A stretch of 24,554 nt of DNA from a virus. The translations under genes were made by a program, and so were the position numbers. The notes below the pieces were generated by a model. It did not search any database. It worked only from the letters and a program-made list of their open reading frames with translations, and was not told the origin of the DNA. How positions within the stretch are numbered: the stretch's first letter is position 1; every line of letters starts with the position of its first letter. The DNA is taken from IMG/VR virus record IMGVR_UViG_3300047365_000366, positions 1 through 24,554 of that record. One strand, 5' to 3'. Shown in pieces: positions 761-22,957 of this stretch.

Positions 761-1777
761 TTAGTTAAGTAAAATTAATGCGCCTGTGATTGTAACGTTT
801 CCTAATGCCGACATTGTAACGTTACCACCACCAGCAATAGTCATTGCTCCAGTGGAACCAACAATCATTGGTCCGGTAGAAGTCATTGTTGATGCACCAG
901 TTGCTGCTGATACGATTGCTCCACCTGCTGTCGTGGCAATAGCATCTGTTGCTTTAATTGAAACACCACCAATAACAGTATTAACACTATAAGAAGTATC
1001 TCTTGCTTTAATTAACGGTGGCACTGATGGTTTTCCAGCAATGACAGTTTGTGCTATGCCACCAACCCATTGCTTATAATCACCAAGAATAGACCAATTA
1101 ACATGTCCAGGTGAAACAATGTTTTGTGATGCTCTAGGGTCAAACTGTACAGATGTTTCTTCACCAGCACCAAATGTCATCTTCTGACCAAAGATAATAT
1201 CTTTTTTATTGTCTACAATTTGCTCAATAGTGCCAGCACTCATTTGAATAGTACCACCACCATTAGATCCTGCCTGAATGAATACTTGTGATTTTCCAAT
1301 CAAAAATAATTCTTCTTCGGCAGTAATAACAATTTTCTGTGCTTTAATATGTCTTTCACTACCGGTAGCTTCTTCTACAATATCTCCATATGCAATAATG
1401 TTTAGTGCTTCATGACCATCATCACCACAATTATATTCAATGTGAGTTACTTGTTCATGTTTTTGTTGCTGTCCATGAGTGTGTATACACAATTTTCCAC
1501 TAGAAGCACCTTTTTCTACATTTTTTTCTCCAGTAACAATAACAATAGATCCATTGTTTTGAAGTGAAAGAAACCCAGCAGTGCCTTCGGGACCATCTAT
1601 TCTTAGCGTTGATGTCTGACCATCAGGATACATACGTTCATAAATCTGTGAACGAGTCAACACACCTTTCCAGCATGTTGTGAAGACAGGACCATCTTTT
1701 AAGTTCTGTGTTTCATCTGCCGTGGTTTGTTTGAAGATACCTGTAGGGTATTCATTAGCGGGTACAGCGTGTGACAT
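761..1777 (-). CDS. Baseplate central spike / cell-puncturing needle (gp5 C-terminal-like beta-helix)
   Basis: 338 residues from ATG at 1777, chosen because it overlaps the gp5 stop as TAATG; a TTG three codons upstream is the alternative. The C-terminal about 70 residues are short Gly-anchored repeats (GAMTIAGGGNVTMSALGNV), as in the trimeric beta-helical needle at the end of T4 gp5 and VgrG proteins. The middle part has a His-rich loop (CIHTHGQQQKHE) and beta-rich sequence. In T4 the needle is part of gp5; here it is a separate gene directly behind gp5. Inference: the two proteins make up the membrane-piercing device together. I see no HxH metal-binding tip at the C-terminus, which ends ALILLN. 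An alternative is a spike-tip adaptor that sits on gp5. Confidence 0.7.
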   Translation of the reverse strand: MSHAVPANEYPTGIFKQTTADETQNLKDGPVFTTCWKGVLTRSQIYERMYPDGQTSTLRIDGPEGTAGFLSLQNNGSIVIVTGEKNVEKGASSGKLCIHTHGQQQKHEQVTHIEYNCGDDGHEALNIIAYGDIVEEATGSERHIKAQKIVITAEEELFLIGKSQVFIQAGSNGGGTIQMSAGTIEQIVDNKKDIIFGQKMTFGAGEETSVQFDPRASQNIVSPGHVNWSILGDYKQWVGGIAQTVIAGKPSVPPLIKARDTSYSVNTVIGGVSIKATDAIATTAGGAIVSAATGASTMTSTGPMIVGSTGAMTIAGGGNVTMSALGNVTITGALILLN

Positions 1778-4644
1778 TATGGACAATCAATATAACGACC
1801 AGTTCCGATCTTAGTAGATCCAACTGTAGTAAGTGCTTCAGTATCTAGGCATCTGAAAGATGGTAATAGTTTAGCACCATATCCACCGCCACCAACGATT
1901 ACAATCTCAGGGAATTTTTCAAATGTCAATTGTCTATCTAAAATTCTAGCGCCAACGACAAATCCATCTTCGTTGATAACTGCTTCCGCAACACCAAGTT
2001 CACCATTTATATACATATCAGGTTCTGATGTATATCCAATTCCGGGGCGGATTATAGTAAATGCATCAATAATACAACGAACGCCAGATTCATTAGCAAG
2101 ATTTAATTTATAACCATATCCAGATGCTTTAATACGAATTTCTGTAATAAATCCATCTTGATCTAGTAAAGGAGTTGCTACAGCACCAATTCCTTCACCG
2201 CCAATAAAGACATATGGTGGTTCTGCCCAGGGATCTCCAGGTTGACTGATAGGTATTTCAATAATTCCTCCATTATCATCTGTAATAATAGTTTCAGGAA
2301 TAACTTCCGGAACAATAAATTCATCTGTGGTTGTTCCTGGAGTATCACCCTCACCATCATCTTCTGGTGGTTCAGTATTAATTTCCGGCACCACCAGCAC
2401 ATTTGCAGTAGCACCAGTTCCATTTACAGTGAATGTAAGTAACTCTTCATCTTCATCTAAAGAATCTTCAGAAATTCCAATTATTACTTCAGCAGTATTA
2501 TTATTAATAACAAAAATACCTGTTGTTTTTCCACCAATAATATCATCAGATTCAATATCACCTGTTAATGTATAGTATGCATATGTACCATTTTCTACAT
2601 TTTCTGTAGTAATTGTATATGTCACAAAATCACCTTCCTTGACAGATACCTTATCAGCAATTACTTCATATGAAGGTGGAGTATCATTTGTTGTATCATC
2701 TGTTGTGCCATCAGAAAATGGGTCATCATCAGGAGATGGTGTATCATCAGGAGGTGGAGTAGGAATATCTTCTACTACTTCAGGTGGAAAAATATCAGGT
2801 ATAATTGGATTGGGATTTAATGGTCTAGGAGAGTATGGATTTCCTGGTTCTTTTATATTACGCTCTGTAATCACACACCTACCAACATTTTTTATAAGTC
2901 TAGATCTAACTCTACTACCTTCACCCGGAGAGTTTATCTTTAGAATGACATAAAAGTCTTCATCACCTTCTTTTTCCTCTGAATAGAAAGTTCTAATACT
3001 AATTCTTTTTACAGTTTCTCCTTGAGCAAATCCAAGAATACCATTATCAGGTAAGTAATCTTCATCTGGAGTAGCAGTTCCTTTCTTGGATGTTTTATAA
3101 GTTACAGATGAAGCAGATTCAATAAATCCTGTTCTAGTTACCTCAAATACAGCATTAAATCCTTCCTCAACAATAATATCAGATATCGTATAAACAATTT
3201 TTGGTGATTTTGTTGGTTTATCACTATAACGAGGAACTCCTCCAGTAAATCCAATTGTTGTAATAGATAACGGTTTCCCAGTATAAGCATCGTCACAAGT
3301 ATACTGATTAAAATCAGCTCCTGTGGTAGGAAATAAGTTATCGATATTAGAAAGAAGATCATCTAAGAAATCATTTCCTTTTTTATCCTCTTTATCTTTT
3401 TTCTCTCCATCTGTACAAATTTGCTTATATCCGGCACATTCATTATTAGGTCCAGAACAAGAAATACCAAGCAAATTTAATACAAAATTAATTGCTCCAC
3501 CTAAAATATTAAGTGGTCCAGCAATAGCACCAAGAATATCCTGAATAGGTCCAAGAACTTTTCCTAAAATCTCTTCCATCAAGGAATTGATTTTTGATAG
3601 AATACCATTTACTAATGTATCTACTTGACATGCTGCAGCACGATAAACTTGATTAATTAGACCCATTAAAACGTTTGTCAAGAATTCCGCTAACCGGTCT
3701 CCAAGATCTGCCATTTTACATCCAAGATCTTTAAGAAGATTATTGAACCATTCTGTAACTGGAGTAAGAGCGTTTCCAGTTTCATTTGGATATAATACTG
3801 CTTTAATTAGATCCTTAACTGCATTAGTGAGTTTCTCAAGTACAAAACCTTTTACTTTTGCGATAAAATGCCTGATCACACTCATAAACTTATTGACATA
3901 CTTTCTTGCTATGCCAATACCACTATTAATTGTTCCACTAATAGGACTAATTAAATACGTGCCAATATTTCCATTATTTTTCTGAACTTCATTTAAAAAT
4001 TCACCAAGTAAAATTTTGGTTTTGTCAGTTAGATTTTGTTTGTCACATTTTTCTGCTACAGATTGACACCATTTTTCATCATCCCGACCCCTCAGCATTC
4101 TTGGGGGTATTGGGACTGTATCATCACCAGTTGGCAAAGCACCAGTAGTTTTGTTTGCTTCTCCTTGTCCACCTTCAGGATTTTCTGGTGCTGGTTGTCC
4201 GTCCGTAACAGGATTTACCGGATTATCAACTGTATTATTGACTGTTCCAAAAGCTGTGCTGCCATTAGGTCTCTCACTCTTAGAGATAGTTGTAGCACCA
4301 GGAGTTTGTCCAATAGAACCCATGATAATGGGTTTCTGCTTTAAGTTGTCTAAGTAAAAACCAACAACCCAGCATCCCTTAATAAGTTGTGGATGTGCTC
4401 CACCAACATTACCAGGCATAAAGGGCACATTGACTGGCATCATCACATTTGCCCATGGCAAGTCTGGCGTATCAAGGATCTCCTTACTTTCAGGGTGATC
4501 TCCTACGATACGAACTTTAAAACGATAACCGCCTTTGTTAGTTTTTTCTTCTGCGGCAGTTTGTTCGACTTGACCCACCCACCAATTGAAACCATCGGAT
4601 CCAATGCGCTGAGTAGGAATCAACTGTGATAATAGTTGGTCCAT
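1777..4644 (-). CDS. gp5: Baseplate hub gp5-like protein with OB-fold, Calx-beta domains and Gly-rich repeats, no lysozyme domain
   Basis: 955 residues. Residues 1-125 resemble the gp5/VgrG OB-fold (WWVGQVEQ, YRFKVRIVGDHPE, then LPWANVMMPVNVP and KPIIMGSIGQT). A helical region with amphipathic stretches follows (about 200-430). A Calx-beta domain lies around 485-595 (GTATPDEDYLP, GETVKRISIRTF) and a second Calx-beta-like unit around 665-755. A Pro/Asp-rich linker separates them. The end (about 800-930) carries GxGY..P..IxGGG-type glycine-rich repeats, common in marine phage structural proteins. T4 gp5 has a lysozyme domain after the OB-fold; none is visible here, and a lytic domain occurs instead in the protein at 6310-8973. 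The gene lies between the CP12-like gene and the spike gene. It is very likely the spike base on the gp27-like hub; Calx-beta units probably bind carbohydrate or calcium (inference). Confidence 0.78.
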   Translation of the reverse strand: MDQLLSQLIPTQRIGSDGFNWWVGQVEQTAAEEKTNKGGYRFKVRIVGDHPESKEILDTPDLPWANVMMPVNVPFMPGNVGGAHPQLIKGCWVVGFYLDNLKQKPIIMGSIGQTPGATTISKSERPNGSTAFGTVNNTVDNPVNPVTDGQPAPENPEGGQGEANKTTGALPTGDDTVPIPPRMLRGRDDEKWCQSVAEKCDKQNLTDKTKILLGEFLNEVQKNNGNIGTYLISPISGTINSGIGIARKYVNKFMSVIRHFIAKVKGFVLEKLTNAVKDLIKAVLYPNETGNALTPVTEWFNNLLKDLGCKMADLGDRLAEFLTNVLMGLINQVYRAAACQVDTLVNGILSKINSLMEEILGKVLGPIQDILGAIAGPLNILGGAINFVLNLLGISCSGPNNECAGYKQICTDGEKKDKEDKKGNDFLDDLLSNIDNLFPTTGADFNQYTCDDAYTGKPLSITTIGFTGGVPRYSDKPTKSPKIVYTISDIIVEEGFNAVFEVTRTGFIESASSVTYKTSKKGTATPDEDYLPDNGILGFAQGETVKRISIRTFYSEEKEGDEDFYVILKINSPGEGSRVRSRLIKNVGRCVITERNIKEPGNPYSPRPLNPNPIIPDIFPPEVVEDIPTPPPDDTPSPDDDPFSDGTTDDTTNDTPPSYEVIADKVSVKEGDFVTYTITTENVENGTYAYYTLTGDIESDDIIGGKTTGIFVINNNTAEVIIGISEDSLDEDEELLTFTVNGTGATANVLVVPEINTEPPEDDGEGDTPGTTTDEFIVPEVIPETIITDDNGGIIEIPISQPGDPWAEPPYVFIGGEGIGAVATPLLDQDGFITEIRIKASGYGYKLNLANESGVRCIIDAFTIIRPGIGYTSEPDMYINGELGVAEAVINEDGFVVGARILDRQLTFEKFPEIVIVGGGGYGAKLLPSFRCLDTEALTTVGSTKIGTGRYIDCP

Positions 4645-6309: not shown

Positions 6310-8973
6310 TTATTTTATAGCAGCAATATTTGCGAAAGCAACCAAACCGTGCCCGCTAGATCCAAGAGTTGCCATTGAGGTAGTAGCTTGAGATTCTTGC
6401 GTGGATGATTGTGTGGTGGGTGCTGGCACTGTAATAACAAATGGATTTTGTTGAAGTTGCTTTTCCTGCTGTTGTATCATAAAAGACTTCAGAAAAAGAT
6501 TATCACTTTTGTCTTCTACTGGATCCATTAATGCTGATAAAGGATTAATTGGAGGAGTTGTAGTTAAATCACCAAATTGCCCACTTCCAGAGTTTGCTTT
6601 CTTCAGCATATCACTATACAGTTTCATAGCACCAGATTCTGTAATATGATTGTTTTCCACAGAAAGTCCTTGCCATCCTGCCATTGATCCAGCTTTTGAT
6701 AACGAAGCAGAATCCATTGCTTTATTTGGATCAACACCAAGACTCATCAAATGAGCTAAAGCAAGTTTTTGTTGATTTTCAGGAGTATATAAAGTTGTTG
6801 TTGGATCCATTCCTGCGTCCTTCACTCTCGCCATCATTGTACCTGGATGGAATTGGAAAGCACCAGCAGCATGAGAAGAATATACTGTACCATCTGGGGA
6901 AGCATATTTAACTTTTCTACCGCCAAATCTTTCTGGCAAGAATCCTTGTCCAATAGAACTTCCATACGCCATATCATAAACTTCCTGCATTGTCATTTTT
7001 GTCAATTCAGGAACAACCTCACCACCAACTATTGTGTTATATCTATCTTTACCACCCGCTTCTGTAGCGTTAATTGCTGCCAACCATGCTTTTGCTTCTG
7101 GGGTATCACCAGCAAGTTTAGATACATCAATGTCTCCACCACCGCCAGGAGTACGATCGCGATCGTCATCTCCACCACCTCTCATCCATTTTGGTAAGAG
7201 TTTGCCAAGTGCATCTAATAGTCCTTTCCACCATGGTTTTTTATCAAAATACTCAGAGAATCCCGATGCTTGTAGTTCGGCATATTTTCTTTTGTTATTT
7301 TTTTGTGCCTCTAACATACCTTCACCAAACATAAGAAATGTTTTTCTACCTCTAGCACCTTCAAGTGGAAAAACACCTTCTTGACCAGCTTCGCCAACTA
7401 GACCAGCAACTGGTTTAGTAACAATACCACCAGAAGCAAATGGAGTCAAACTCTCTGAGTTAGAGTTGCTAGATTTATTTCCACCGGTTAAAGCATCATA
7501 AATTGCTCCACCAACTAAATCACCAGCAATACCACCAAGAATAGTGCCAACACCAGGAATTGGAACAAACGATCCTAGACCAGCACCAAGTGTAGCACCA
7601 ACTGCCTTTGCTGCTGCTCTACCAACCGATTCTCCCAAAGCAAGACTTATACCAAAATCTAATAGACCACCAACTATAGGAACTCTCTTTAATACAGGAC
7701 TCAAGAACTTCATCACTCTTGCTCCTTTAGCAAGACCCATTCCTGCTGCTTCCAAACCTTCTGCGCCAAAGCGTTTCATGGCAGCTTTTTGACCATATCT
7801 TTGAGCGTATCTCTTTGTTATATCGTTTTGTGCTGTACCAAGCGCATCACCTGGACCAGCAGTGCCAGCAAAAATTCTATTAATAGATAACTTACTACCA
7901 GTCATACCGTTGTTGCGGAAATTCATTCCACGGATACCAGGTCCCCCAGCATTAGCAGTAGATAATCCTGATGCTCTTTGTGCTCTTCTCCCAGCACGAC
8001 TCATTCTACCAAGACCACGACGGCGACCACGGCGACCACCACCAAGCATACTCAATCCAGTATCTAAAAGATTTCCCATGCCACCAAGCATGTTACCAAG
8101 AATTCCACCTTGAGGACCTTCAAAACCAGATCCTTCAGGATCTAAATCTCCACTAGACTTACGTTGCAGAGACATATTTGATTTTTCAGCAGCTGCTAAT
8201 TGCCTGGAAGCAATTTTTTCTTGTGTATTCTCTGCATTTGAAGCAATCAGCATTTGCTGTTGTAATTGACGCTCCGCAATACCAACCTGAAGTTGTCCTA
8301 AACTTTGAACACTATCAACTACTTTTACATTTATTCTTTGTACACTATCAATTGCTTGAACAGTGGTATTATTGGATCTAACAATTATTTGCCCAATTTG
8401 ATTTAAAATACCAGCAATATCTTTAATTTCAGTTGCTGTAGTATTAACACTACTAAATCCAGCAGCATTAGTTTTAGTTCCTTGGTATTTGGCAACTTCT
8501 CCACCAAGAACTTCAGGATTAATTGCTTGTGGTCCTGCTTCTAATAAGTTTTGAGCAACTCCGCCACCTGCCTGAGCAACTCCACCAAAAAAAGATGCTA
8601 ACCCACCACCATCTTCAGCAGGAGAAAAAATCTCATTTGAAACGTTATAATCAAAACCACCACGAAAACGAGATGCCTGAGATCCTGTAGGATCTCTACC
8701 AGGACCAGGATCAGATTCAAATCTACCTCTAGTCCTGGCAATTCTATCACCACCAAAACTAGATCCTAATGCTCTCTTAAAGAAATATCCTTTACCAATT
8801 CCTGCTTCTTCTAAGGATGTGCCACCATCTTCTGCTTTTTTTGAAGCAAAAGCACGCTCTTTACGAGCCATGTTTGATGAGTTTCCTATTCTATCACCAA
8901 TAGCACTAGCAATACTACCGAGAAGATTTCTCTCAGTTCTTAAATCTGTTGGGTTTAAAGATCCGTGTGCCAT
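6310..8973 (-). CDS. Tape-measure / baseplate hub protein with lambda R-type lytic transglycosylase domain
   Basis: 887 residues. The N-terminal third is polar, with predicted coiled coil (about 180-270, Gln/Ala-rich). A Gly/Arg-rich stretch (GRRGRRRGLG) follows. Residues about 425-500 are a Gly/Ala hydrophobic segment typical of tape measures. Around 515-540 is ASGGIVTKPVAGLVGEAGQE, a motif shared by many tail tape-measure proteins. Residues about 620-795 (roughly 6585-7110) resemble the lambda endolysin R fold: INATEAGG with the probable catalytic Glu, YNTIVGGE, SSHAAGAFQFHPGTM and TPENQQKLALAHL. This would cut peptidoglycan during injection. It lies directly after gp26 and its frame-shifted extension, the normal place of a tape measure, and at the T4 gp29 position. 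The start overlaps the extension stop as TAATG. It could also be called a hub protein; the lytic domain is the surest part. Confidence 0.72.
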   Translation of the reverse strand: MAHGSLNPTDLRTERNLLGSIASAIGDRIGNSSNMARKERAFASKKAEDGGTSLEEAGIGKGYFFKRALGSSFGGDRIARTRGRFESDPGPGRDPTGSQASRFRGGFDYNVSNEIFSPAEDGGGLASFFGGVAQAGGGVAQNLLEAGPQAINPEVLGGEVAKYQGTKTNAAGFSSVNTTATEIKDIAGILNQIGQIIVRSNNTTVQAIDSVQRINVKVVDSVQSLGQLQVGIAERQLQQQMLIASNAENTQEKIASRQLAAAEKSNMSLQRKSSGDLDPEGSGFEGPQGGILGNMLGGMGNLLDTGLSMLGGGRRGRRRGLGRMSRAGRRAQRASGLSTANAGGPGIRGMNFRNNGMTGSKLSINRIFAGTAGPGDALGTAQNDITKRYAQRYGQKAAMKRFGAEGLEAAGMGLAKGARVMKFLSPVLKRVPIVGGLLDFGISLALGESVGRAAAKAVGATLGAGLGSFVPIPGVGTILGGIAGDLVGGAIYDALTGGNKSSNSNSESLTPFASGGIVTKPVAGLVGEAGQEGVFPLEGARGRKTFLMFGEGMLEAQKNNKRKYAELQASGFSEYFDKKPWWKGLLDALGKLLPKWMRGGGDDDRDRTPGGGGDIDVSKLAGDTPEAKAWLAAINATEAGGKDRYNTIVGGEVVPELTKMTMQEVYDMAYGSSIGQGFLPERFGGRKVKYASPDGTVYSSHAAGAFQFHPGTMMARVKDAGMDPTTTLYTPENQQKLALAHLMSLGVDPNKAMDSASLSKAGSMAGWQGLSVENNHITESGAMKLYSDMLKKANSGSGQFGDLTTTPPINPLSALMDPVEDKSDNLFLKSFMIQQQEKQLQQNPFVITVPAPTTQSSTQESQATTSMATLGSSGHGLVAFANIAAIK

Positions 8974-9164
8974 TATCGTTGTTTAGCGGCGGCTTCGTTT
9001 TGTTGTTTAACTTGTTCTAAGTGTTGCATCAATAAAGAAACATATACTTGCCTCTCAAATGGCATCATATTTTCAACATCACTTAAACTATATTTATGAT
9101 GCTGCATCAAAGCAAAGTTAGTTTTGTAGTACCCCTCCAAAGTATTATGGAAGAGTGCTATCCG
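8973..9164 (-). CDS. -1 frame extension of gp26 (frameshift product tail, putative tail assembly chaperone T-like part)
   Basis: 63 codons open in the -1 frame immediately past the gp26 slippery site, ending TAA at 8975-8973, which shares its last A with the tape-measure ATG (TAATG). The first ATG in this frame is only at 9107 (44 residues) and has no ribosome binding site. The residues before it (ALFHNTLEGYYKTNFAL) look like real protein that only frameshifting could express. The rest, HHKYSLSDVENMMPFERQVY then VSLLMQHLEQ, is a helical segment of a type found in short tail genes of marine phages. The fused product would be about 299 residues. In lambda-type phages the GT fusion binds the tape measure; that role is inferred here. 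Alternative: an independent 44-residue gene starting at 9107. Confidence 0.72.
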   Translation of the reverse strand, partial: RIALFHNTLEGYYKTNFALMQHHKYSLSDVENMMPFERQVYVSLLMQHLEQVKQQNEAAAKQR

Positions 9165-9170
9165 AAAAAA
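9131..9170 (-). promoter_or_regulatory. -1 programmed ribosomal frameshift signal (slippery heptamer plus stem-loop)
   Basis: In the gp26 frame the codons run AGT TTT TTC GGA TAG, so 9170-9164 reads T TTT TTC, an X XXY YYZ heptamer. After a 7-base spacer (GGATAGC, 9163-9157) ACTCTTCCA (9156-9148) pairs with TGGAGGGGT (9139-9131) over nine positions (two G-U), with an 8-base loop. The gp26 stop lies in the spacer. All three parts have the usual spacing of bacterial -1 frameshift sites. Confidence 0.8.
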
Positions 9171-9972: not shown

Positions 9973-10599
9973 CTATGCTGCACCACCATTAAAAATTTTA
10001 ACTGCTTGTTCCAATGGTTTTCCTGTTACTCCAGTAATATCTCTATCGATAGTATAGTGTCTCTGATATTTAAACTGAGCAGTAACCTTAGTAATTTGAG
10101 AAGATCCAAACTGAAGTGGAACAGCATCTATGGCATATGGATATGCCTTCTCCATGACATATGTGATTGGTTTTCTTTGTGTTGGCGAATCAGGACCAGT
10201 TTCAGATTTTGTAATTTTTATAGTGCCAGCATATTCATTTCTATATTTTACTCTAACAGTTCTATTTTCTGATGTGCCAGTCTCATCAAACATAGAATTA
10301 TACCATTGGTTCAAATATTTTAACATAGAAAGATCAGCATCTAGCATGAATCCCAATTGAAGTTCTGTAAATACTTTAGTGTGTGGGTAATCTATATTGC
10401 CGAGTCCGGTGTAAAGACCGTTAATAGTTCCAGTTGCCGTATTAATATTTGGTAATTGTGCTTCGTCACAAAAGTACTCAATTCCTTCAGATATACCAGG
10501 ATAACTAACTGGAACATTCTCAAAGGCGACAACAAAATTATTCGAGTATGACATTCCGCCTCTAGCGGATATAGCAGACATAAATCTATTGATTGACAC
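9973..10599 (-). CDS. Tail tube-like / baseplate tube initiator protein (gp19/gp54-like)
   Basis: 208 residues from a GTG at 10599; ATG six codons later (10581) is the alternative but has no better ribosome site. The sequence (SNNFVVAFENVP, EYFCDEAQLPNINTATGTIN, PHTKVFTELQLGFMLDADLS, then LKYLNQWYNSMF and RTVRVKYRNEYAGTIKI) has the layout of the T4 gp19 tail tube family: a beta-sandwich with a conserved LP then P-H-T-K loop and a long helix LxYLxxWYNxMF. T4 gp19 has 163 residues and gp54 320, so it fits between; the baseplate tube initiator role fits its place near gp48, which is divergent. It has its own CATAAATA late-type motif overlapping the gp4 start. Confidence 0.68.
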   Translation of the reverse strand: MSINRFMSAISARGGMSYSNNFVVAFENVPVSYPGISEGIEYFCDEAQLPNINTATGTINGLYTGLGNIDYPHTKVFTELQLGFMLDADLSMLKYLNQWYNSMFDETGTSENRTVRVKYRNEYAGTIKITKSETGPDSPTQRKPITYVMEKAYPYAIDAVPLQFGSSQITKVTAQFKYQRHYTIDRDITGVTGKPLEQAVKIFNGGAA

Positions 10600-20649: not shown

Positions 20650-20891
20650 TTTTTTGGTGCAGAGACTAATCCATTTTCCAATAAGAATTTAGCAGTCTCT
20701 ACCAGACCACCAATTTCTTTTCCATCCATAATAACATAAGGAAAAGAACTTGCTTCGGGATAATCGACACGAAGTTCATCTCCGTTATTACACAACTGCT
20801 CATCATATTCAGTGATGTTCGCACGTTCAAAGAGTTGCTTTAACTTACTACAATAAGAACACCCTGGTGTAGAATAAACTTTAATCTTCAT
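20646..20891 (-). CDS. Glutaredoxin
   Basis: 81 residues from ATG at 20891 (MKIKVYSTPGCSYC), which overlaps the purM stop as ATGA. Redox site CSYC at 11-14, SSFPYVIMDGKEIGG as the cis-Pro and glutathione-binding part. Compact single-domain glutaredoxin (family length 80-90). It reduces disulfides, probably including ribonucleotide reductase, with glutathione. Operon with purine synthesis and nucleotide genes supports that. Confidence 0.92.
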   Translation of the reverse strand: MKIKVYSTPGCSYCSKLKQLFERANITEYDEQLCNNGDELRVDYPEASSFPYVIMDGKEIGGLVETAKFLLENGLVSAPKK

Positions 20892-21820
20892 TGTACTTTT
20901 CCAATAACCCAAGACATCATACCATAAGGTGTGTCAGAAATCAAGGTCTGAGTTAGTTCTGCTACATCTGGTGGCACAACTAAACAGAATCCAATACCAC
21001 AGTTGAATACATTACGCATCTCTTCCTCAGCAATGTCTCCTGCCTCTTGGATCTTGGTAAAGAGTTCTGGTCTCTCCCAAGCAGAATAGTCAACGTCAAC
21101 TGTGAGACCCCTTGGAAGGCATCGTGGGAGGTTCTCAGGCAGTCCTCCACCTGTGATGTGTGCCATGCCTAGGATAGGAACTTCATCCAACAGGTGCTGG
21201 ATCAGACGAGCATAGATGGTAGTTGGAACCAACAGCTCGGGCATCTCCTTATAGAAAATATAATTTCTCCACAGCATATCATTGACCAGTGTGTATCCAT
21301 TACTATGAAGACCACTACTCTCAATACCTATGACTACATCACCTGCTCGGATGTTACTACCATCAACAATCTGATTCTTCTCTACAATACCAGTACAGAA
21401 ACCAGCAAGGTCATAATCATGTGCCCTGAAATGCTCTGCTGTTTCTCCACCAATAAGTTCCATCCCCGCCATTGTACAACCAACATTAATCCCATACACA
21501 ATGTCACTCACATTAGCATCAAGTGTTTTGGCAGAGACATAATCTAAAAAATATAATGGTTTAGCACCAGAACATATAACGTCATTGACGCACATAGCAA
21601 CGAGATCCTGACCAATAGTGGTGTAATCATCAGCAATCCTACAGATATTAATTTTAGTTCCGACACCATCAGCACCAGATACTAGCACAGGTTTCTCATA
21701 TCCTGATGGGACCTCCATCATTCCACTGAAACCACCATCAATCTTAGGTGCCAATACCTTTAGATACTCTACGAAAGATCGACCTTTAATAATATCAACG
21801 CCAGCAGTTTTGTAGTCCAT
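20888..21820 (-). CDS. purM: Phosphoribosylformylglycinamidine cyclo-ligase (AIR synthetase) PurM
   Basis: 310 residues (host about 345). DYKTAGVDIIKG, GADGVGTKINICRI, DLVAMCVNDVICSGAKPLYF, LIGGETAEHFRAHDYDLAGF, HITGGGLPENLPRCLP and VFNCGIGFCLVV are the PurM motifs, with the ATP loop and FGAR-binding regions intact. It closes the imidazole ring of AIR in purine synthesis, feeding dATP/dGTP for phage DNA. The usual MPG after GGETAE is replaced by HFR, and about 35 residues are missing relative to hosts. Start overlaps the upstream stop as TAATG, stop overlaps the glutaredoxin start. Confidence 0.95.
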   Translation of the reverse strand: MDYKTAGVDIIKGRSFVEYLKVLAPKIDGGFSGMMEVPSGYEKPVLVSGADGVGTKINICRIADDYTTIGQDLVAMCVNDVICSGAKPLYFLDYVSAKTLDANVSDIVYGINVGCTMAGMELIGGETAEHFRAHDYDLAGFCTGIVEKNQIVDGSNIRAGDVVIGIESSGLHSNGYTLVNDMLWRNYIFYKEMPELLVPTTIYARLIQHLLDEVPILGMAHITGGGLPENLPRCLPRGLTVDVDYSAWERPELFTKIQEAGDIAEEEMRNVFNCGIGFCLVVPPDVAELTQTLISDTPYGMMSWVIGKVQ

Positions 21821-22089
21821 TAGTGAATTTCTCCTTTGATAATTTGTTCACGGTTCTTTAGTTTCCATACAATGTAGTCCATGGTAGGGACACACTGAGG
21901 ATTCCATCCAGCAAAAGTTGAGTGTTCTCCACTTGGTATCTGCCAACAGGGGGAGTCATCGTTTTCAAGGTCTAGTGACTCACGGTATGCTTCATCACCT
22001 AGTAGGACAACTGCTCTCTCTGCCTGGTTTAAGCTAGTGAAACAAGAAAAACAATTCTTCTTAATCTCATCAGGGATTTCGTGTTTCAT
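21820..22089 (-). CDS. Small protein of unknown function between purC and purM
   Basis: 89 residues: MKHEIPDEIKKNCFSCFTSL, NQAERAVVLLGDEAYRES, DSPCWQIPSGEHSTFAGWNP then VPTMDYIVWKLKNREQI. Four Cys, Trp-rich middle. Joined to purC by ATGA and to purM by TAATG, so probably translated with them. No family recognised; it might be a purine-pathway accessory, but only position suggests it. Confidence 0.7.
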   Translation of the reverse strand: MKHEIPDEIKKNCFSCFTSLNQAERAVVLLGDEAYRESLDLENDDSPCWQIPSGEHSTFAGWNPQCVPTMDYIVWKLKNREQIIKGEIH

Positions 22090-22784
22090 TGAATAGCAAG
22101 GGGTTGTAGTCTCTCAAGGATCTCACGATAAGCAGGGACAATATCACCTTCATCGTTTCTGAATAGATCCTTATCGAATCTTTCATCACCACCAATCTTC
22201 CACAATCTCATACTATCGGGACTGATCTCATCAGCAAGTAGCAACTCACCATGTGCAGTGTATCCATACTCAACTTTAAAATCAACCAGATCAATACCTA
22301 AGATGTAGAACAATGAACGGAGAATGTCATTGATACGTAGAGTCAAGTCAATAAAAGGTTCAGGATCATATCCCATCAGACGCACACGATCTCTTGTCAA
22401 CAGAGGATCATGCTTGTTATCATCCTTCAAGAAGAACTCAACAATAGGATGTGGTAGTGAGTAACCTTCTTGGAGAGTTGTCTCACGGACAATAGATCCA
22501 GCAGCACGGTTCCTACAAATAACTTCCAGTGGAACGATGTCTACTTTCCTACAGATCATCTTGTTAGCACCAACCATATTAATATAATGTGTTGGGATAT
22601 GTTCTTTGGCAAGTTTCTCAAAGATAAGAGCAGAAATACTACAGCAGAGGGATCCCTTTCCTAAAGGATGATCAACCATCTCACCGTTGCCTGCTGTCAC
22701 CTTATCATGATACTCAATGATGACACGATCAGCATCATCACCAGCGTATACAGTTTTGACCTTGCCTTCTACAATTACTTCCAT
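22086..22784 (-). CDS. purC: SAICAR synthetase PurC
   Basis: 232 residues from ATG at 22784 (MEVIVEGKVKTVYAGDD). ATG at 22808 is in frame but directly abuts the predicted -10 box, so the mRNA would start beyond it; the family normally begins at this EGK motif. Blocks: GKGSLCCSISALIFEKL, PLEVICRNRAAGSIVRE, PIVEFFLKDDNKHDPLL, LVDFKVEYGYTAHGELLLAD, EISPDSMRLWK. These include the ATP and CAIR binding residues. It joins aspartate to CAIR in purine synthesis. Full length. First gene of the purC-orf-purM-grx chain, with a promoter and terminator in front. Confidence 0.93.
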   Translation of the reverse strand: MEVIVEGKVKTVYAGDDADRVIIEYHDKVTAGNGEMVDHPLGKGSLCCSISALIFEKLAKEHIPTHYINMVGANKMICRKVDIVPLEVICRNRAAGSIVRETTLQEGYSLPHPIVEFFLKDDNKHDPLLTRDRVRLMGYDPEPFIDLTLRINDILRSLFYILGIDLVDFKVEYGYTAHGELLLADEISPDSMRLWKIGGDERFDKDLFRNDEGDIVPAYREILERLQPLAIQ

Positions 22785-22804
22785 AGAAATAGGGCGTTTA
22801 ACTT

Positions 22805-22957
22805 TCATAGTATACAATAAAAAAGCACTCCCGTCAAGGAGTGCTGTGTCGGTTTAGGAGGTGGTCTGAATGGACAGTCTGGACACCCAGCACCACAACA
22901 TCCTCTAGAAAGGTTCAGTGAAGTGCTTACCGATAACTTCGATACGTTCTTCTTCAT
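22805..22957 (-). CDS. Cys-rich small ORF (CCGAGCPDCPF), uncertain
   Basis: 50 residues, ATG at 22957 within the upstream gene in another frame. Contains RGCCGAGCPDCPF (C20, C21, C25, C28), a motif like that of DUF5522-type cyanobacterial and phage small proteins (CCGxGCxxCP). The motif lies right after the stop of the 73-residue gene. The ORF runs through the terminator, which argues against it, and there is no clear ribosome site. It may be a decayed or frameshifted gene. The conserved motif is the only support. Confidence 0.38.
   Translation of the reverse strand: MKKNVSKLSVSTSLNLSRGCCGAGCPDCPFRPPPKPTQHSLTGVLFYCIL
22809..22837 (-). promoter_or_regulatory. purC: Sigma70-type promoter for purC, -35 in the terminator loop
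   Basis: Minus strand TTGACG (22837-22832), 17 bases, TATACT (22814-22809). The -35 hexamer is the same as that of the 616-644 promoter. The spacer consists of the terminator's 3' arm and its T-run. Transcription would start near 22802, giving a leader of about 18 bases to the 22784 ATG. Confidence 0.8.
22819..22845 (-). terminator. Rho-independent terminator upstream of purC
   Basis: Minus strand AGCACTCC-TTGACG-GGAGTGCT (22845-22824) followed by T-run 22824-22819. The loop equals the -35 box of the purC promoter. It ends the psbD-doxX side operon. Confidence 0.92.

Follow-up and report, generated by a model that had tools for sequence, protein, structure and literature searches.

Gene 26 of a marine T4-like cyanophage carries a conserved -1 frameshift signal predicted to fuse gp26 to gp51

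We identify, with high confidence, the gene 26 locus of a marine cyanobacterial virus as encoding a lambda G/GT-like pair of tail assembly chaperones, in which a predicted -1 slip near the end of the short gene yields a gp26-gp51 fusion. The 24.5-kb stretch analysed (hereafter the window), a virus record of IMG/VR, has as its nearest complete genome that of Synechococcus phage ACG-2014j (Kyanoviridae; gp26 identity 94.5%). The tail tube, gp26 and probable tape-measure genes follow one another directly, with gp26 between the other two (Table 1). Most ribosomes would stop at the gp26 TAG and release the short form of 237 aa, while a minority, aided by a hairpin 7 nt downstream, would shift back by one base on T TTT TTC and produce a gp26-gp51 fusion of 299 aa; we infer both the slippage and its efficiency from the DNA. 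By analogy with lambda (PMC5009743), the shared gp26 part would coat the tape measure protein, the rarer extension would bring tail-tube subunits, the extended gp26 would recruit the tape measure, and both forms would leave before the virion is completed and be absent from it. The proposal of a frameshifted chaperone pair, made in a first-pass annotation of this DNA, is supported by homology to T4 gp26/gp51, by the position of the locus and by matches of the gp26 N-domain in the PDB. T4-like cyanophages are abundant marine viruses, and this interpretation of gp26/gp51 offers a testable handle on tail length control.

Table 1. Positions and supporting evidence for features of the gp26 locus (window coordinates)
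Feature	Position	Strand	Basis
gp26, short form of tail assembly chaperone, 237 aa	9158..9871	-	PF12322 E 4e-73; phrog_150 E 1.5e-80; model pLDDT 90.6
Slippery heptamer T TTT TTC	9164..9170	-	three codons before gp26 stop; slip codons synonymously invariant in 52 close relatives
Downstream stem-loop (stem 9 bp, loop 8 nt)	9131..9156	-	7 nt after heptamer; z -3.54 and -3.65; clade-specific
-1-frame extension (gp51 / 'T' part), 63 residues after FF	8973..9166	-	phrog_634 E 1.2e-28; phrog_150 C-terminus; dN/dS 0.061
Candidate late promoter CATAAATA inside extension, upstream of tape-measure gene	9091..9098	-	fixed position in relatives; consensus NATAAATA (PMC2984593)
Tape-measure gene (probable)	6310..8973	-	weak tape-measure PHROG matches; GGxxxxPxxxLVGExGxE-type motif; size; position
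Tail tube protein gene, immediately upstream of gp26	9973..10599	-	PF23849 E 2.7e-94; phrog_45

The 0 frame of gp26 ends in AGT TTT TTC GGA TAG, which puts the heptamer TTTTTTC, in the phase T TTT TTC, at 9170-9164, exactly where the first-pass annotation had placed it. To follow this site across relatives we used 212 loci with a gp26-like gene, drawn from IMG/VR and phage records, together with a close-relative test set of 52 distinct window-clade sequences. The heptamer proved conserved: T TTT TTN lies 2-4 codons ahead of the gp26 stop in 181 of the 212 loci, and takes the form T TTT TTC in 177. Within the close-relative set both slip codons are invariant (TTT in 52/52, TTC in 52/52, synonymous change nil); the mean synonymous divergence is 0.378, and none of 90 other codons shows a value of zero. 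With the chance of T-TTT computed from the codon usage of each phage itself, its joint occurrence in 19 clusters (<60% identity), which are not fully independent, has a probability of ~10^-14.5. Phages that prefer TTC still keep TTT at the slip position, and the slip codon of ACP17 is the sole TTT among its 14 Phe codons. No conserved upstream stimulator resembling a Shine-Dalgarno sequence was seen when relatives were inspected by eye. This pattern of codon retention points to a genuine programmed -1 frameshift signal under strong selection at the end of gp26.

The open -1 frame runs from 9194 to a TAA at 8975-8973 that overlaps the tape-measure ATG (8973) as TAATG, and its first ATG lies at 9107; these coordinates of the earlier description are right, as is its estimate of about 299 residues for gp26 plus extension, the conceptual fusion being 299 aa long. 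A -1 extension of 53-66 codons follows T TTT TTN in 181/181 loci, and in the 52 distinct relatives its dN/dS is 0.061 in the -1 frame vs 1.66 and 3.79 in the other frames; on these two grounds a chance open frame was rejected. Protein-coding selection acts on the extension from the slip site onward. The stretch between the slip site and the 9107 ATG, previously proposed to be coding, holds some of the most conserved residues of the extension, so that conserved residues precede the first ATG, and both the heptamer and the part of the extension upstream of 9107 are conserved in relatives. The extension matches phrog_634, 'baseplate hub assembly catalyst' (gp51), as well as the C-terminal end of phrog_150. 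The earlier remark that no description was known for a gp26 gene needs correcting: the extension belongs to the family annotated as gp51, and T4-like gp26/gp51 chaperones were proposed in 2022. Among the phage records compared, none annotates the locus as frameshifted; gp51 appears as a separate gene, as hypothetical or not at all, and the ACG-2014j annotation omits the extension. The 'gene 51' listed separately or left out in such records is very probably the tail end of a longer gp26 protein.

Downstream of the heptamer, arms ACTCTTCCA (9156-9148) and TGGAGGGGT (9139-9131) form the 9 pairs of a hairpin with an 8-base loop after a 7-base spacer, all as first described. Its stability in the window is z -3.54 vs dinucleotide shuffles and -3.65 vs synonymous recoding; under the latter comparison z <= -2 was obtained for 47/48 distinct window-clade sequences and for 47/53 in the next large clade, a pattern that argues for selection on the hairpin in the two largest clades. 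Its expected conservation across relatives did not hold up: the hairpin is absent or weak in the P-SSM4 clade, HTVC008M, RHph_I1_9 and Aeromonas 65, and a hairpin common to all relatives was therefore rejected. In one sub-clade the stem is re-formed in a shifted register (CCCTCT/AGAGGG), and an RNA alignment (RNAalifold) contained one-sided compensatory changes and no two-sided ones. The hairpin thus appears to be a clade-specific stimulator and no defining feature of the system.

Two other routes to the C-terminal part of the pair were weighed against ribosomal slippage. The extension could be an independent small protein, gp51, translated either from a start codon of its own or through reinitiation after termination at gp26, as the separate gp51 CDS annotated in many GenBank records would imply; several relatives that are not cyanophages (ValKK3, EniLVp02, Marzo, RHph_I1_9) have an ATG overlapping the stop of gp26 (TAATG/TGATG), an arrangement that would also keep the -1 frame constant there, and reinitiation could therefore add a short protein in these phages. 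Against this, the start codon given in annotations differs from phage to phage, S-ShM2 and P-SSM4 have a Val or Ile codon in place of the window's 9107 ATG, the conservation extends upstream of that ATG to the slip site, T4 gp51 contains a gp26-like part, and an independent protein has no need for a T TTT TTC without synonymous change. We consider this account very improbable and rejected an independent start at 9107 as the main route, the ATG being unconserved and the conservation lying upstream of it. The earlier remark that the extension has no ribosome site is correct insofar as no Shine-Dalgarno sequence occurs at the window's candidate starts, but it is a weak argument without discriminating power, since a match is missing for gp26 as well. 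Fusion through RNA polymerase slippage on the T run, with ribosomes not involved, would give nearly the same protein from a homopolymer site that counts six Ts here and seven or eight in pf16, phiM12 and HTVC008M. We rate it marginally lower still: six Ts are short for bacterial transcriptional slippage, the Ackermannviridae-type site has four only, and a selected RNA hairpin at 7-nt spacing combined with the codon phase X XXY YYZ fits ribosomal slippage.

As for the function of the pair, the gp26 model (pLDDT 90.6) consists of a helical N-domain followed by a beta-rich domain. The top PDB matches of residues 1-94 are B. subtilis YqbN (3klu, Z 7.2), of the XkdN-type prophage chaperone family, and the tail assembly chaperone of HK97 (2ob9, Z 6.7), followed by 3fgx (Z 6.6) and 5ir0 (Z 5.0) and, after a gap, by unrelated folds from Z 3.7; all these values are < 8 and hence not decisive. 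Foldseek with the gp26 model returned no E-value below 0.001, and because its E-values are not significant we treat the tail assembly chaperone fold of the N-domain, as modelled, as supportive only. A PDB sequence search with gp26 and gp51 gave no significant match, and comparison of a T4-type gp51 model with the PDB (VIA-align) found nothing at Z >= 5. Database names, and older T4 genetics placing gp26 in the hub (PMC3004832), would instead make gp26 a structural baseplate hub subunit whose frameshifted form has a hub role and no tape-measure chaperone role. The same source, however, also counts both gp26 and gp51 among the hub assembly chaperones, the locus position and the fold indicate a tail assembly chaperone, and T4-like tail assembly chaperone genes are named in the 2022 study as cited by PRFect (PMC10885494), so that we regard the hub reading as unlikely. 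T4 gp51 is required, yet it is not in the particle (PMC3004832).

The chaperone pair proposed here resembles lambda G/GT in that the short gene lies between tail tube and tape measure, the slip site sits a few codons ahead of the short gene's stop, and the -1 extension has no usable start of its own and ends at the tape-measure gene. It differs in its heptamer, T TTT TTC, in an extension of only 63 residues and in a larger gp26, with a beta-rich domain following the helical N-domain; the profile searches run detected no sequence similarity of gp26 or the extension to lambda or HK97 chaperones. Another parallel is the locus of phage Adele (Vandenendeviridae/Andersonviridae; PMC12846349), where a -1 slip on a T run likewise ends the short form and the extension is often annotated as a separate hypothetical gene, although the motif there is GTTTTT and the phage families are others. 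Frameshifted tail chaperones are a known class of mechanism, of which the cyanophage gp26/gp51 case is a well supported member. Vladimirov, Gautam and Davidson (2022) describe a short and a long fused chaperone gene in T4-like phages, as cited by PRFect (PMC10885494), and poly-T slip sites in T4-like short-form genes, as cited in the Adele paper (PMC12846349); as far as these citations convey, their study may already cover cyanophages. In the literature searched, which did not include that study, we found no explicit account of cyanophage gp26 frameshifting, and the case is there at most incompletely described. Sullivan et al. (2010) reported that in cyanophages and marine vibriophages gp51 is without its N-terminal ~200 residues and that gp51 is missing in Aeh1, with no mention of a frameshift in the text (PMC3037559). 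Their cyanophage 'short gp51' is the same extension as here, and the frameshift would account for both the 'short' and the 'missing' genes, supplying the N-terminal part that the former lack.

Heptamer and extension together are found in all relatives outside the T4-type and Ackermannviridae-type clades, with the exception of one contig (L154), and reach down to about 27% gp26 identity. Carriers comprise Kyanoviridae, Pelagibacter phage HTVC008M, Pootjesviridae, phiM12, pf16, ACP17, Marzo and Rhizobium and Sinorhizobium phages, as well as Straboviridae outside the T4 group (Ah1, Aeromonas 65, ValKK3, EniLVp02); both elements are also present in the contig L184, which may be Aeh1. In the exceptional contig (236 kb, around position 1907), the slip site has a 2-nt deletion relative to its likely ancestor, so gp26 and gp51 are fused in frame into one reading frame of ~297 residues, and the contig holds no second gp26 copy; the deletion may be natural or may stem from a sequencing error. 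Ackermannviridae (Det7-like), Vibrio phage K351 and Pseudomonas phage Cygsa01 have a homologous-looking -1 extension with ATT TTC or CTT TTC in place of TTT TTC (L090, L187-L201, L209 and L210), which suggests slippage on a shorter TTTTC site in this clade.

Both hallmarks of the T4 gp26/gp51 family are present in the window, gp26 belonging to PF12322 and being homologous to T4 gp26, and the extension being homologous to the gp51 C-terminus. In T4, genes 26 and 51 are separate, divergently oriented and without a slip site, unlike the single gene with frameshift here; the end of T4 gp26 keeps Phe-Phe, but as TTC TTT. T4 gp51 matches PF12322 over residues 1-201 and phrog_150 and gp51 family profiles in its C-terminal part, and its alignment with the conceptual fusion of gp26 and extension spans 234 columns. 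By these matches T4 gp51 is a full-length homologue of gp26 plus extension, encoded in a gene of its own. Complete frameshift-type records, including ACG-2014j, contain one PF12322 gene and T4 contains two; a two-gene arrangement with a separate long-form gene was not found for ACG-2014j (single PF12322 match). In an unrooted gp26 tree, T4-type lineages form one clade (100/99) and Ackermannviridae-type lineages another (99/99). The simplest reading of this tree is a frameshifting ancestor of the T4 superfamily, with T4 genes 26 and 51 likely a derived two-gene replacement of the older frameshift: T4-type phages would have exchanged the slip for two genes, one short (26) and one long (51), and the Ackermannviridae-type clade would have retained the arrangement with its shorter site.

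The same ~200 nt of cyanophage DNA may also carry a promoter. The sequence CATAAATA (9098-9091, minus strand), corresponding to the published cyanophage late-promoter consensus NATAAATA (PMC2984593), lies inside the extension at a fixed place (gp26 stop +63 nt) in 81/81 loci of the window clade and 56/60 of the L114 clade, but in 0/13 of the P-SSM4 clade. This candidate late promoter may drive the tape-measure gene; with the RNA stimulator in the same stretch, chaperone ratio and tape-measure supply would therefore be set by overlapping signals. We advance tentatively, as somewhat less likely than not, that frameshifting is ancestral with T4 as the exception, that the cyanophage region combines RNA stimulator and tape-measure late promoter, and that the Ackermannviridae-type shift occurs on a non-canonical TTTTC. 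If true, T4 as the exception would recast the statement in the review of Atkins (2016) that G-T frameshifting is conserved 'except T4' (PMC5009743).

Several further features of the window were recorded. A second candidate late promoter, CTAAATA at 9902-9896 (minus strand), lies about 25-30 nt upstream of gp26, and nearly every locus checked has an [AC]TAAATA motif in the 120 nt that precede gp26. The probable tape measure has a lysozyme-like stretch beside its tape-measure-like motif and is labelled endolysin by PHROG and 2OG-Fe(II) oxygenase in the ACG-2014j record, both likely misannotations. Elsewhere, all on the minus strand, lie a gene (1777-4644) whose product is a gp5-like baseplate protein containing OB and Calx-beta domains and three host-like metabolic genes, namely CP12 (PF02672; 4650-4877), an AIR synthase-like gene (purM; 20888-21820) and one whose product resembles SAICAR synthetase (purC) by eye (22086-22817).
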